DNA from: Desulfurococcales archaeon
GTDB lineage: Archaea > Thermoproteota > Thermoprotei_A > Sulfolobales > NBVN01
DNA length: 64,000 nucleotides
Assembly (NCBI GenBank): GCA_023255955.1
Contig: JAGDWD010000008.1
Coordinates: forward strand, 316,845 to 380,844
Reading direction: 5' to 3'
This document shows positions 16,199-29,257 of this stretch, piece by piece. How positions within the stretch are numbered: the stretch's first letter is position 1; each line of letters begins with the position of its first letter. The position numbers and the translations under genes are program-made. Under the pieces are notes generated by a model. It saw only the letters and a program-made list of their open reading frames with translations, had not been told where the DNA came from and made no database searches.

Positions 16199-19100
16199 TT
16201 GTATGGGGTGAAGTTGAGGTCTTCCAGAAACCTGGCTAGTATTTTAGCCAGTATATTTAGGAGAAAGTCTGAGAAGAAACATAGAGAGAGTGAGGGTTCG
16301 ATAGAATCAATAGATGAGATTACAGAAACGGAATCAGCTCTTATTAAGCCAGCTATAAGCCCTGAAAAACTTAAACTAACGGTTGTTAGAGGAGATACTA
16401 AGCTACTTGAAACATACCCACTCTACGAGCCTTGGGCCTACGCATACATAGCTGAGGATAGAGCTACGGGCATAATAAACTACATAGTCTATGAGGTAGG
16501 GCTTACACCTCAGGAAGAGGAAATATACAGGAATATAGTTGACTATATAATGTGGGAGCTGGAACCCCCGAAGGTTCCCATAGAGGATGTTAGGGAGTAC
16601 ATATCCAGGTTTGCTAAGAGAGCTATAAGACTCTTCCAGATAAGACTTGGGAGAACACCCGGTCTTTCTTGGAGTAAAATAGGTTACTACATTGAGAGAA
16701 ATATCGTTGGATACGGTCCTATAGATCCATTAATGAGGGATCCTAACATCGAGGATATTTCGTGTGTAGGTCCTGGAATCCCGGTCTATGTCTGGCACAG
16801 AAAGTACGAGTATATACCGACCACGGTAGTTTTTAAGACGTCACAAGAGCTGGACGAGTTCGTGGTTAAGCTGGCCCATCTAGCCGGTAAGCATATCTCA
16901 GTAGCATATCCAATACTTGACGCTATCCTACCTGGAGGCCATAGGATAGCAGCAACTTTTCAGAAAGAAATCAGTACTAAGGGTTCGACATTCACTATAA
17001 GAAAGTTCAGGGAGGACCCCATCACGATAGTTGATTTAATAAATTACGGAACTATATCGCCGGAGATAGCTGCGTACTTCTGGCTAGCGATGGACTATAA
17101 GATGACTACTCTAATCCTGGGAGTTACCGGTGCTGGGAAGACAAGTACCCTAAACGCTTTAGCTAACTTGTTGAGACCGACCTACAAGATCGTTACGATA
17201 GAGGACACGCCTGAGCTTAGGCTACCTCAAGAGAACTGGGTACAGCTCACAGCGAGACCTACTTACCTGTTTTCAGGTGCTAGTGAAATAAAGCTGTTTG
17301 ACTTAGTTAAGGTGTCCTTGAGGTATAGACCTGACGTTATAGTCGTTGGTGAGGTCAGAGGTGAGGAAGCTTACGTCTTATTCCAAGCCATAGCAACAGG
17401 TCATAGCGGTCTATGCTTACCGGGTGACCAGCTCGTACCAGCGATAATTGACGGCCGTCTCGACCTCTATGAGATGGAGGACATAGTTAGGGGAGTCATA
17501 TTAAACAGGTATAGAGATGTGAGAGTTCTAGCATACGTAGATGGAAGACCGGAATGGGTGAACATATCGAGGGTAGTAATCAAGAACGGTAGTAACCGTT
17601 TCATCAGAATATATGTCGCTGATGGTGTGGTTCACGAAGTGCATGAGGAACATCCAATAGTTGTTTATGTGGATGGTGAGCTGAAAACTAAGAAGGCGAA
17701 GGAGCTTAAGGAGGGTGACTCTCTTGTTTCGATAGCTGAGGTATCTCCACCATCAAGTAGGAAGCTTATTACAGCGATAAACGTGCTAGATATGCTCAAG
17801 GAGCATCGAGAGAACCTATATGTTAGATTACCACCATTGAAAAACCATATATCGTTAACCTCGGCTCAGCTAGCCTCATTACTTGGTGTAAGCATATCAT
17901 CTACTAAGAAGTGGATATACGGGAAATCCAGTATACCGGTAAAGCACGTTGAGAGGCTTATAGAGCAGAAGCTTATTCAAGAAGAGGCTCTTCACGAGGC
18001 TTTCATAAAATATGGGAGGTATGAAAGAGACGGTGTTAGGGTAGCTATACCTCTTAACTTTGACTTAGGCTATGTATTGGGTTCCTTCTTAGCAGGTGGC
18101 AGTATTAGAGTAGACAATCATGGTGTTCCTAGTGATGTTCTATTCTACGTAGGTAAGAACTCAGAGCTTGTGAGGAAGCTGACAGAGAAGCTGTCAACCA
18201 TAGTTTCGCCAAGGTTGGTTAAGGTGAGGGTAAGTAGGGGTAGATACATCGTCGATGTTAGGTCGAAGATCTTCGCATTACTCATGTCAAGCCTCCTTAA
18301 CTGGAGAGCATCAGATCACCATCTCTCTGTACCATTAAACCTAGCGTTACAGTCTCCCGAGGAGTTCAGGAGAGGTATTGTGGTAGGGTTCTGGCACGTA
18401 AAGGGGTGGATAGGTAATGGCGAGAATAGGCAGTTTAAGGTTCAGGTTAGCATAGTAGACAGGAAGCTAGCAGAGTCGTTATCGTGCTTGTTAAGATCTC
18501 TAGGTGTTCTGGCTACCGTTACCTTACGTGTTAATGGAGGGGGTCATGGTAAGAAGGAGTTAGCTAGGTACGTCATTAAAATTACCGGTTGTCTTGATAA
18601 GCGGAAGTTTACTGAGATATTTGATGGTCAGGTACCTGTAGCAACAGATAGAATGGTTAGGTCTGCTAATGGACTGGTAATCCATAAGGTGAGGAAAGTT
18701 GAGGTAGTTGTGAAGGACAGTTTACTCTACGATATTGAGGTACCGGGTAGCCACATATACGCTATCTCAGGAGGGTTTATAGTGACCCATAACACGACAC
18801 TACATGCTGAAGATATAAATGCCGCGGTCAAGAGACTTACTTCAGAGCCTATGAAGATACCTGAGTCATATATACCGCTAGTAAACATGGCGTTAGTCAT
18901 AAAGAGGGTTACGAAACTAGATGAGTTAGGGAGGCCCAGACCCGTTAGAAGGATAACCAACGTCTGGGAGATCGAGGACTACGGTAAATACAGGGAAATA
19001 GCTACGTGGGATCCTGCGAGGGATAGGTTCAGAGCGAACTTGAGGGAGTCCCTAATAGTAGAACGAATAGCTGAAATGAGAGGTCTTAGCGTTGATGAGA

Positions 19101-25665: not shown

Positions 25666-26409
25666 CTATCTATCGGTAACCTCTTCATAAAGCCTCTTCT
25701 TCTCCTCATATTTATCCCGACTCATTACAGGTCTAGCAGGTACCCCTGCCACCACGGTATAGGGCTCCACGTCCCTGGTGACAACAGCTCCCGCTGCTAC
25801 CACGGCTCCCCTACCTATCTTAACTCCCGCAATTATCGTTGAGTTTGCTCCGATTACGGCCTCGTCCTCTATTACTGTCTCAACTATTCTCTTACTTGGT
25901 GGGTACTTATCGTTAGTTATTACGGCTCTAGGGCCTATAAAGACGTTATTTCCTATGAGGGTCTTTATAGGTATGTAAACACCTGACTGTATATTTGTGT
26001 TCTCCCCGATACTCGTATACCCGTCGATAACGACACCGCTCCCTATTTTGCTCCCTTTTCCTATCCTAGTATTTTCTCTAATGAGGACATGGTGTCCTAG
26101 CTCAACGTTGTCCCCTAACTCAACACCTTCATAGATAACGTTGTGAGACCTGATTATGGATCTATCCCCTAACCTACTACCTGAACTAACGTTGTCTAGT
26201 TCCTCTAGAGATACCTTACTTAAAATACGTACATCCAGTAGCTTTGCTCTGGTAGGGAACCCTACTACAGTGAAGCTAGAAACTATGGTGTGGGAACCTA
26301 CGTACGTAGGTCCTAAAACTATAGCAGGGTAGACTATGTACGCTGCTGAACACAGGTGAGCTCTTCCGGAGACGTAGTGTTGGGACCCCTCCAACACCTG
26401 GAACCACAA
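25666..26409 (-). CDS. Hexapeptide-repeat acyltransferase/acetyltransferase (WbpD-like)
   Basis: Left-handed beta-helix hexapeptide repeats, ending AVVAAGAVVTRDVEPYTVVAGVPARPV. Confidence 0.88.
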   Translation of the reverse strand: MWFQVLEGSQHYVSGRAHLCSAAYIVYPAIVLGPTYVGSHTIVSSFTVVGFPTRAKLLDVRILSKVSLEELDNVSSGSRLGDRSIIRSHNVIYEGVELGDNVELGHHVLIRENTRIGKGSKIGSGVVIDGYTSIGENTNIQSGVYIPIKTLIGNNVFIGPRAVITNDKYPPSKRIVETVIEDEAVIGANSTIIAGVKIGRGAVVAAGAVVTRDVEPYTVVAGVPARPVMSRDKYEEKKRLYEEVTDR

Positions 26410-26494
26410 CTTAGCGTTTTCGTAACTCTATATAAGCCCTGCTGGAGTCTGGGGAGTAGAGCTGGATCTACTGGACTTTGTTAGACAGGTAACA

Positions 26495-26731
26495 GTGGTT
26501 GTTATGAGTGTGGCTTGGTTAGTGTTTCTTGTATCCTGGGCAGTGGGTTGGGCCCTTAGAGGATCTCCAATACCTTTCAGAAACCTAAAGAGGACTGGGC
26601 AGAGCCTGATAGAGGACTCTGTAATTGCTGCGTTCTGGCTCGCTCTCGGGACGAGCATATTTGCTCTCATATCATACATAGCGTCATCCATATCTGTACC
26701 CATGCCTTCTCCTCCAAATCCATATCCTTAG
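26495..26731 (+). CDS. Small two-TM membrane protein, CedA1-like conjugation-pilin homologue
   Basis: Two hydrophobic helices; shares the GSPIP-x4-KxxGxxLxxD motif with the adjacent polytopic protein. Confidence 0.55.
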   Translation: MVVMSVAWLVFLVSWAVGWALRGSPIPFRNLKRTGQSLIEDSVIAAFWLALGTSIFALISYIASSISVPMPSPPNPYP

Positions 26732-26744
26732 TAGTGAGCTAGTT

Positions 26745-28091
26745 ATGGAGCTACTTTCCCTAGCATATTCCCTATCGTTACTTACATTTAGCTTAGGCAC
26801 GGTACTGTACGGTTCTCCGATACCGATCAAGTCAGTGAAGAAGTGGGGAGTGTTAATGATGTATGACGGTATGGCGTCTGCCTTGCTAGTGTCTTTATAT
26901 AGTCTCCTGGTGAGACTTACCGATTACCTACTCACCGTTTTAGATGCTAGCTGGCCGCAATTCATGCTGTGGCTTACAGGTAGAACAGGTATTTTAGTGA
27001 CTTTCTATATTAGTCTGCAATCCATGGCTACAGCTCTTAAGCTCTCCGGGACCGACCTACTAGCTGAGCTACTCAAACACGTGGGGAGCTTAGTAGCAAC
27101 ATCTCTTACAGCAATTAAGGTAATATATCTAATAGCCACCGTGGTTTACAGTATAAGAGATAAAATTCTGGCAGTGGGGATACTACTTTATTCTATACCC
27201 ATGAGGGTGGGAAAAACAGCTGGAGCAGCCATGATAGCTCTATCGTTAGTTTACTACGTAGGTCTTCCCCTAATGCCGGCATTCGCCGCAATCTTCGAAT
27301 CCCCTTCCGCTGTAGTGCATAGCGACGGCTACGGCTCTATTAAGGGTGTTGTCGTAGATGTAGCTGGTAGACCTATCCCATACCCTGTAGTAAGGCTATA
27401 CACCACTAATGGTATTGAACCTGCTGTTGTAGTGGTTGGGGATGTAGATGGCGGTTTTTATGTGGGACCTCCACAGGATCTCATAAAGTTGGGAAAGGAG
27501 CTTGAGGTAGATATACTATTCATGGGCTACAAACTCTCTCCCGATCCAGCAGTCTTAGTGATCCCCTGGACAGGTACGTTGAGAGTAAGTAACATCATGT
27601 ACCTAGGGAATGGCCTCTCAATAATTTTCTCCGGGATCTTAGTTATTGAGGGAGTTGAGCACCCATCACCTACAAGTGCTACAATAAAGCTCTCAGTAAT
27701 AGATTACGTAGCTGATTTAGGATTCCTCAAGGTGAACTCCACTAATGTGAATCAGTTGTTAGTAGACGGTAAGGAGCTGACATGTACGTGGACTTCCTTT
27801 AGTTGGAGAGGTATGTTACTTGATGAATGCTTTATCCAGCTAGGTCCAGGAACCCATACAGTGACGGTAGGTCACTACTCCGGTATAGGGTACCCGGAAC
27901 CCGAAGTTGAAGAAAGACACTATATTGACTACGGTGACGTAATGGACTACCTAAATGCTCTCCAAACCACCGCAGCATCATATCTCTACTCCTATCTACT
28001 GCTACCATCCGCTTATCTGGTACTTCTATCAACATCATCGTATATCTTATCTAAATTCCTGGGGGGTGGTCTCAGATTAAGGTTCTTTTAA
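26745..28091 (+). CDS. CedA-like polytopic membrane protein with carboxypeptidase-regulatory-like Ig insert
   Basis: N-terminus YGSPIPIKSVKKWGVLMMYDG; several TM helices; insert GSIKGVVVDVAGRPIPYPVVRLY. Confidence 0.55.
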   Translation: MELLSLAYSLSLLTFSLGTVLYGSPIPIKSVKKWGVLMMYDGMASALLVSLYSLLVRLTDYLLTVLDASWPQFMLWLTGRTGILVTFYISLQSMATALKLSGTDLLAELLKHVGSLVATSLTAIKVIYLIATVVYSIRDKILAVGILLYSIPMRVGKTAGAAMIALSLVYYVGLPLMPAFAAIFESPSAVVHSDGYGSIKGVVVDVAGRPIPYPVVRLYTTNGIEPAVVVVGDVDGGFYVGPPQDLIKLGKELEVDILFMGYKLSPDPAVLVIPWTGTLRVSNIMYLGNGLSIIFSGILVIEGVEHPSPTSATIKLSVIDYVADLGFLKVNSTNVNQLLVDGKELTCTWTSFSWRGMLLDECFIQLGPGTHTVTVGHYSGIGYPEPEVEERHYIDYGDVMDYLNALQTTAASYLYSYLLLPSAYLVLLSTSSYILSKFLGGGLRLRFF

Positions 28092-28099
28092 GGAGGTAC

Positions 28100-28258
28100 T
28101 TGCGTCAGCTAATACTATCAGCACTCATGATTGTGGGATTCACTCTTAACTTACCTGAAAGCGATGTCTTGAAGGTATTCCAACTATGCTCGCTAGTTCT
28201 AGCATTAGTGTTTTACTGGCTCTTAGAGCTCAGAAGATCTCCCTATATGCTTAGCTAA
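28100..28258 (+). CDS. Uncalled 52-aa two-TM small protein, CedA2-like by position
   Basis: TTG start 4 nt after GGAGGT: MRQLILSALMIVGFTLNLPESDVLKVFQLCSLVLALVFYWLLELRRSPYMLS; not in the ORF track because it is short. Confidence 0.55.
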   Translation: MRQLILSALMIVGFTLNLPESDVLKVFQLCSLVLALVFYWLLELRRSPYMLS

Positions 28259-29257
28259 GGTTCTTAGTAGCTCTTCTAGGCCTATCCTACCTAAAGCACT
28301 TACCTTGATTATCTCGGTACCGGGAACAACCTCAGATGCGGCGGTAACTACCTTCTCAAGCCGTTCTGGACTTACCTTATCGATTTTGTTTACCACGACT
28401 ATGATGTCCACCTTAACGTTCTCTTTAAAGTATCTTAGAAGATTAAGCTGGCTTTCAAGGCCGTAGTAAAAATCTTCTGATGGATCTATAAGATAGAGTA
28501 TAAGGTTAGCTAAGTTTGTTATGGCTATGAAAGCTTTCCTCTCAATCTCATTCATTCTTTCCGGGGGTCTGTCTAGAATCCCCGGTAAATCGAGGATTTG
28601 AAAGCGGCTGAAACCGTAATCTATATGACCCATTACTATCTCCTTAGTAGTGAACGGAAAGGGCGATGATTTGGGCTTAGCTGAGGATATTACTGAGACT
28701 AGGGTTGACTTACCTACTTGCGGTAATCCCGCGACAGCAATAACCGGTAGAGAGGGGTCGATACATGGGGTTCTTCTAAGCTCAGCTATAGCTCTATTTA
28801 CTAGCTCGATATCCTTCGATAGCTTTCTTACTATGGATAGAACTCTCCCAATATATTCTCTATATATTTCCTTAGCTTCAGCAGAGTCAAAACTTGCGGA
28901 TACTCTGGCTTTATACTCTCTTGAGAGGACACTAACCTTCCTTAACTTCCCAAGGAGTTTCCCCACCACGTCATCGATAGAGTACCCCTCAGGTAGGGCA
29001 TTAGAAGCTATGTCCTTATAGAAACCTATTTGAAGTATGCCCTTAAAGCCTTTAAGAGGTCCTATAACGTTCCTCGTAAGGTAGCTGAAGACCCTATCTA
29101 TTCTCGTAGCATATCTAACTAACGCTTTCCTACTAACAGACTTAGATAAAGATATGGACTCTATTCCTACCTTAAGTACATACTCCCTGATTTCCCCGTA
29201 GGTAGGTACCTTCCTTAAAGTCTCTTCTGGGCACCTCCACTTTTTCTCCATAAACAC
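28223..29257 (-). CDS. NOG1-like GTPase
   Basis: NOG1 N-terminal helical domain (LRKVPTYGEIREYVLKVGIES), AGLPQVGKSTLVS, DLPGILDRPPERMNEIERKA, NKID. Confidence 0.92.
   Translation of the reverse strand: MFMEKKWRCPEETLRKVPTYGEIREYVLKVGIESISLSKSVSRKALVRYATRIDRVFSYLTRNVIGPLKGFKGILQIGFYKDIASNALPEGYSIDDVVGKLLGKLRKVSVLSREYKARVSASFDSAEAKEIYREYIGRVLSIVRKLSKDIELVNRAIAELRRTPCIDPSLPVIAVAGLPQVGKSTLVSVISSAKPKSSPFPFTTKEIVMGHIDYGFSRFQILDLPGILDRPPERMNEIERKAFIAITNLANLILYLIDPSEDFYYGLESQLNLLRYFKENVKVDIIVVVNKIDKVSPERLEKVVTAASEVVPGTEIIKVSALGRIGLEELLRTLAKHIGRSSEL

Follow-up and report, generated by a model that had tools for sequence, protein, structure and literature searches.

How does DNA enter an archaeal cell through the Ced system, and why are Ups pili needed as well? 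Heat-loving archaea use Ced to import DNA from one another by way of a conjugation-like pilus, and in Sulfolobus an Ups-type pilus holds the DNA-exchanging cells together. Both questions bear on a three-gene locus in a 64,000-nucleotide stretch of DNA (the window) from a member of the GTDB order that includes Sulfolobaceae and Desulfurococcales; the nearest formally named member of its family is Zestosphaera tikiterensis. An earlier note on the sequence had proposed a Ced-type set of three plus-strand ORFs at 26495-26731, 26745-28091 and 28100-28258, and these coordinates were borne out. The features discussed here are as follows.

26429..26436, plus strand: TATATAAG, a putative TATA box for the operon cedA1-cedA-ORF3, read from the sequence
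26495-26731, plus strand: ORF1 (cedA1) as first reported, 78 aa
26462..26731, plus strand: cedA1 in its proposed full form, 89 aa (NF041797 match, PDB 8dfu match, N-terminus by alignment)
26745..28091, plus strand: cedA (ORF2), VirB6-like multi-TM channel protein, 448 aa (NF041796 match, orthologues, model)
27312..27914, plus strand: part of cedA coding for a predicted extracellular beta-sandwich, residues ~190-390 (AlphaFold2, Foldseek)
28100..28258, plus strand: ORF3, positional cedA2 counterpart, two-TM hairpin, ~52 aa (place, selection, weak profile match)

A chromosomal Ced locus

Our reading, with a probability of about 0.9, is that the window carries a cedA1-cedA-cedA2 locus belonging to a domesticated, chromosomal Ced system that works by the mechanism proposed below, in an uncultured crenarchaeon from the family that contains Zestosphaera. 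At its core this adds one member to an already known system. The Ced-type assignment held: similarity to Ced proteins is strong, CedA1 lies above its equivalog cut-off, and the genes found linked to this set in relatives are themselves Ced genes, not those of another system. A Pfam search of ORF1 to ORF3 returned no useful family. The gene order is that of the Ced loci of Sulfolobus acidocaldarius and Saccharolobus islandicus, where CedB and CedD are likewise encoded elsewhere. Thermoproteales Ted works the same way on paper, with VirB2-, VirB6- and VirB4-like parts, but its proteins have no recognisable sequence similarity to Ced (PMC9905601), whereas those of the window are directly similar to Ced.

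Upstream of the locus lie rfcS, rfcL and orc1/cdc6 (assigned by sequence, Cdc6 by an NCBIfam model) and a hexapeptide transferase gene (25666-26409) that is divergent from cedA1; on the other side, a NOG1-like GTPase gene (28223-29257) is convergent with ORF3, with aminoacyl-tRNA synthetase genes beyond. Ced machinery is homologous to conjugative T4SS, and a gene for a resolvase is found about 1.2 kb past cedB, both of which would suit a conjugative plasmid or integrated element in place of a host system. Such an origin is nevertheless extremely improbable given the position among rfcS, rfcL, orc1/cdc6 and aminoacyl-tRNA synthetase genes, the conservation of the Ced genes across the order, and a search of viral contigs that found no relative of them.

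The pilin CedA1 and its start

ORF1 scores 108.7 bits against the NCBIfam CedA1 model NF041797 (equivalog cut-off 100) and matches the CedA1 pilin of Aeropyrum pernix (PDB 8dfu), whose structure is that of a conjugation-type pilus (PMC9905601), with an E-value of 6.3e-21. Judged by sequence, ORF1 is, as first proposed, CedA1, the VirB2-like two-helix pilin of the Ced system. In an alignment across the order, the residues GxxxxGxPxP...K..G....ED...AAFW.A are invariant or nearly so. The pilin resembles that of A. pernix, but in the window's family it usually ends in a conserved proline-rich tail (PMPPPPxP) that falls outside the A. pernix alignment.

The start first assigned to cedA1, GTG 26495, appears to be late, because the frame stays open upstream of it, the model match begins at about 26471, and relatives carry MDLxxFVRxxT in this upstream stretch. 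The start is probably CTG 26462, 11 codons upstream, which would give a protein of 89 aa; the extended open frame scores 116.9 bits against NF041797. Several genus relatives have GTG or TTG at the position aligned to 26462, where the window has CTG. This CTG is preceded by GGGGAG and lies about 30 nt after the putative TATA box, which is found as TATATAAG, TATTTAAG or TATATAAA at about the same position in all genus relatives.

The N-terminal signature that ORF1 and ORF2 had been said to share is real: the CedA1 model also matches ORF2 (34.3 bits, E 1.9e-8), as does the solved A. pernix pilin with an E-value of 7e-5, compared with 6e-21 for ORF1.

CedA and its predicted outer domain

Residues 2-185 of ORF2 match the NCBIfam CedA model NF041796 (145 bits, E 3e-42) better than any other NCBIfam model, and the remainder of the protein, past residue 185, lies outside it. 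Whole ORF2 stays below the cut-off (145 versus 330 bits), in part because of this extra region; the cut-off fits Sulfolobus proteins. The match sustains the original reading of ORF2 as CedA, the VirB6-like channel, and by sequence its N-terminus is homologous to that of CedA1. Homology of CedA to VirB6 comes from published profile work on CedA and TedA. Pfam VirB6/TrbL gave no match to ORF2 at E<1, and bacterial VirB6 was absent among the 50 best Foldseek matches of the ORF2 model.

In the AlphaFold2 model of CedA (mean pLDDT 94), TM helices form a bundle that ends at residue 184. Beta-rich domains occupy ~196-380, with strands spanning 199-379, and lie between the penultimate TM helix and the last one, which covers 396-439. 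For the beta part, the best Foldseek matches are Ig folds of the transthyretin/CNA-B/carboxypeptidase-regulatory type, among them those of the BcpA pilin and of Sulfolobus SlaB; all these matches are modest, and each leaves part of the protein uncovered. By the positive-inside rule, the basic loops GSPIPIKSVKK and RVGK and the C-terminal GGGLRLR would place this region of ~190 residues outside the cell.

Long CedA occurs in nearly all Desulfurococcales-type loci, whereas Sulfolobaceae CedA lacks the beta region. In a midpoint-rooted tree built only on the membrane part, the CedAs of Sulfolobaceae, short at 259-266 aa, group as a single clade that is nested among long forms and has the window's family as its sister (97/92); a second short form, in locus L120, is independent. 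Loss is more parsimonious than gain because of this nesting and the independent short form, and the midpoint-rooted tree suggests that the ectodomain is ancestral and was lost in Sulfolobaceae. As a likely ancestral state, the ectodomain goes beyond the known system; the openly readable Ced papers do not mention it.

A small two-TM gene behind cedA

At 57 of the 73 loci with a complete cedA, a two-TM protein of ~40-70 aa is encoded directly 3' of it, by a gene that mostly overlaps cedA or starts within 20 nt. Orthologues of ORF3 occupy this place in every genus relative with sequence there, at ~40% identity within the genus. Mean pN/pS is 0.49 in frame; the two remaining forward frames give 0.87 and 1.50, and one reverse frame gives 0.61. 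ORF3, uncalled but proposed earlier as a two-TM gene, is therefore genuine: it is kept after cedA in relatives, is under purifying selection and is more than a chance frame. Its last 36 nt (28223-28258) overlap, in antisense, the 3' end of the NOG1-like GTPase gene. The GGAGGT motif described ahead of ORF3 is present at 28092-28097, but it ends just 2 nt ahead of the TTG, a spacing too short for a normal Shine-Dalgarno sequence. In most genus relatives the gene starts at a GTG or CTG that overlaps the cedA stop; here that codon is TTA.

ORF3 agrees with CedA2 in position, size and hairpin topology. At the level of sequence, the NCBIfam CedA2 model NF041798, which matches three of four tested Sulfolobales proteins in the same place, does not match ORF3, and hhalign of the ORF3 set from the window's family against a Sulfolobales CedA2-like set gives a weak match (P 7e-5, probability 63%). 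By position and layout ORF3 is the counterpart of CedA2, and homology is likely. Alternatively, it could be a small membrane protein with no relation to CedA2, possibly one that anchors the CedB ATPase as VirB3 would. The missing NF041798 match leans that way, as does the place of the small gene between cedA and cedB in other lineages; where it is missing, in Acidilobaceae/Caldisphaera, CedB lies directly 3' of cedA and has an N-terminal TM. Across loci, the small gene occurs without a CedB TM in 17 and with one in 5, and is absent with a CedB TM in 9 and without one in 2. This pattern, however, follows clades and holds few independent events, Sulfolobaceae have both CedA2 and a TM-bearing CedB, and ORF3 has its place, size, hairpin layout and weak profile similarity in common with the Sulfolobales CedA2-like proteins. 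We therefore consider an unrelated protein, anchor or other, rather unlikely and retain ORF3 as the positional CedA2 counterpart.

CedA2 has been reported as not conserved across species and as absent from A. pernix (PMC9905601, PMC11868833), whereas the window's operon keeps a cedA2-like gene. Loci without the small gene cluster in Acidilobaceae/Caldisphaera and a few others; a gene in the cedA2 position is therefore more widespread than published statements imply.

CedB, CedD and the co-occurrence of Ced genes

The earlier note had suggested looking for CedB elsewhere in the genome, and a full-length relative was found on another contig than the window's (genome G000, contig 10, 87714-89414). 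It matches NF041017 over its full length with 183 bits, against a cut-off of 700 that fits Sulfolobus proteins, and this is still by far the best model. A CedD relative lies on the window's own contig but outside the window (contig 12, 409717-410640, minus strand); it scores 218 bits against a cut-off of 600, again fitted to Sulfolobus proteins, and comprises the ATPase part only (~350 aa). It matches CedD better than a candidate on contig 10 (L004), which was dropped. Compared with Ced of Sulfolobus and Saccharolobus, the window genome's CedB has no N-terminal TM helices and sits in an Ups-type operon, its CedD relative is reduced to the ATPase domain, and there is no sign of a second CedA-like gene (CedE). 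A nurA-herA-mre11-rad50 cluster, proposed as supplier of ssDNA (PMC9905601), is located on contig 13; HerA was assigned by model, and the genes around it by their order and sequence.

CedA1 and CedA are each present in 37 of the 41 genomes of the order and absent from the same four, which also have no clear CedB relative. In 33 named loci of other lineages, cedA is followed by an ATPase gene, either directly or after the small gene; among ten such ATPases that were classified, CedB is the best or only model for eight, no model reaches the threshold for two, and CedD is the better match for none. In six loci (L211, L212, L214, L215, L216 and L217) CedB is split into two adjacent ORFs, an N-terminal one of ~120-206 aa and an ATPase of ~280-400 aa, consistently across genomes of two families.

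An operon of cedB with Ups-type pilus genes

In the window's family, cedB lies away from the cedA locus as the last gene of a tight operon, preceded by genes for a class III pilin-like protein, a secretion ATPase (E), an UpsF-like membrane protein (F) and a protein of ~700 aa (X). This order is complete in all 18 complete family loci, and two contig-truncated loci keep X-cedB. Profile-profile comparison (hhalign) of X with UpsX gives a probability of 97.4% (E 1e-11 over 485 columns), compared with 0-0.2% for reversed, shuffled and unrelated controls; on this profile evidence X is homologous to UpsX. F matches UpsF with a probability of 85.5% (E 6e-6). In a tree, the secretion ATPase stands in a separate clade, and UpsE clusters with two other ATPases; orthology of the secretion ATPase to UpsE is not supported by this tree. 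Orthologues of a wHTH regulator (50% identity) lie beside the family's operon and beside the ups operons of two Sulfolobaceae. The cedB operon brings together UpsX-like, UpsF-like, secretion ATPase and class III pilin-like genes, with a wHTH neighbour, much as in Sulfolobales Ups (upsX-upsE-upsF-upsA-upsB), but in the order pilin-E-F-X, ending in cedB and with an ATPase that is not sister to UpsE. When S. acidocaldarius loses UpsX, its UV-induced DNA transfer falls to roughly half (PMC3892339).

Similar pilin-E-F-X-cedB operons occur in a second family (G027, G037, G051), with cedB split in two ORFs and an ~800-aa protein homologous to X by profile (97.4%, E 1e-11). A third family (G025, G035, G114) has a protein at the X position together with cedB; the X model matches only that of G114 (E 2e-21), and the profile match of the set is weak. 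X is missing from the four genomes of genus g10; in the two of these that were searched for them, cedA1, cedA and cedB are absent as well. This joint absence is a single co-loss, not many. Two families without Ced have X-like proteins too (E about 1e-5), and X alone is therefore no proof of DNA exchange. In families without Ced, UpsX/X-like proteins of ~695 aa are encoded away from pilus genes at L210 (G031) and L213 (G142); the X fold may have another use.

The cedB/Ups-type operon goes beyond the known Ced system. It is unmentioned in the openly readable literature found, which comprises Ced papers and work on other pilus regulators, and a text search of the 2016 archaeal T4P census found neither Ups by name nor DNA import.

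A Ced-derived pilus might also have changed its job to adhesion, protein export or DNA release and lost DNA import. The ectodomain of CedA resembles a Gram-positive pilin (BcpA) and adhesion-type Ig domains, and CedA1 of Sa. islandicus contributes to export as well (PMC11868833). Yet CedA1, CedA, CedB and the CedD relative, which are all the components that genetics has tied to import, are kept as a set and lost as a set, and the linkage of cedB to an Ups-type operon fits DNA exchange. A changed job is accordingly very unlikely, and we keep to DNA import.

Proposed mechanism and its meaning

The gene identities, operon structures, conservation and co-loss described above suggest how such a system may work. 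CedA1 subunits would polymerise unprocessed into a conjugation-type pilus that, by homology, serves as DNA conduit. CedA would form the membrane channel beneath it, its outer Ig-like region most likely docking the pilus or the partner cell surface, and the small two-TM protein would bind CedA or CedA1 in the membrane. CedB, with the short CedD, would be the ATPase motor drawing DNA into the cell for repair by homologous recombination. For the pilus conduit, CedA channel, CedB/CedD motors and recombinational repair, the proposal follows Sulfolobus genetics and the structure of the pilus (PMC9905601, PMC11868833). Within the window's family, cedB would be co-transcribed with the Ups-type type IV pilus set; this pilus probably draws cells into contact, and the means of contact and of DNA uptake would then be produced as one unit.

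The operon offers a physical link from aggregation pili to the DNA pump, and it suggests that X/UpsX may have its role at the motor, CedB. The outer domain of this CedA could help to reveal how the channel is docked by a pilus or by a partner cell. The Ups-type pilus and Ced import may ancestrally have been one machine, with cedB in a pilin-E-F-X-cedB operon as in several crenarchaeal families and with a CedA bearing an extracellular Ig-like docking domain; the unlinked sets and stripped CedA of Sulfolobus would then be derived. We give this reading even odds. If it is true, current models, which rest on Sulfolobus, describe a derived state.

Further observations at the pilus loci

The operon's secretion ATPase in the window genome (contig 10, 81707-84235; L138:1708-4236) contains an intein at about residues 332-754 with a LAGLIDADG domain; its ORFs are similarly enlarged in genus relatives and G011 (753-887 aa), compared with 424-450 aa elsewhere. 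The resolvase-type recombinase gene 3' of cedB also encodes an HTH (L138:10572-10970, at the end of contig 10). A promoter motif, AAC-N-C by the TATA box, had seemed by eye to be common to cedA1 and the cedB operon; it was dropped, the window genome's own cedB operon lacking it. Within the window, 16688-17425 encodes a type IV pilus-type secretion ATPase domain inside an open frame of ~900-1017 aa; in the tree it groups with other Sulfolobales pilus ATPases, and the length suggests another intein or a fusion.
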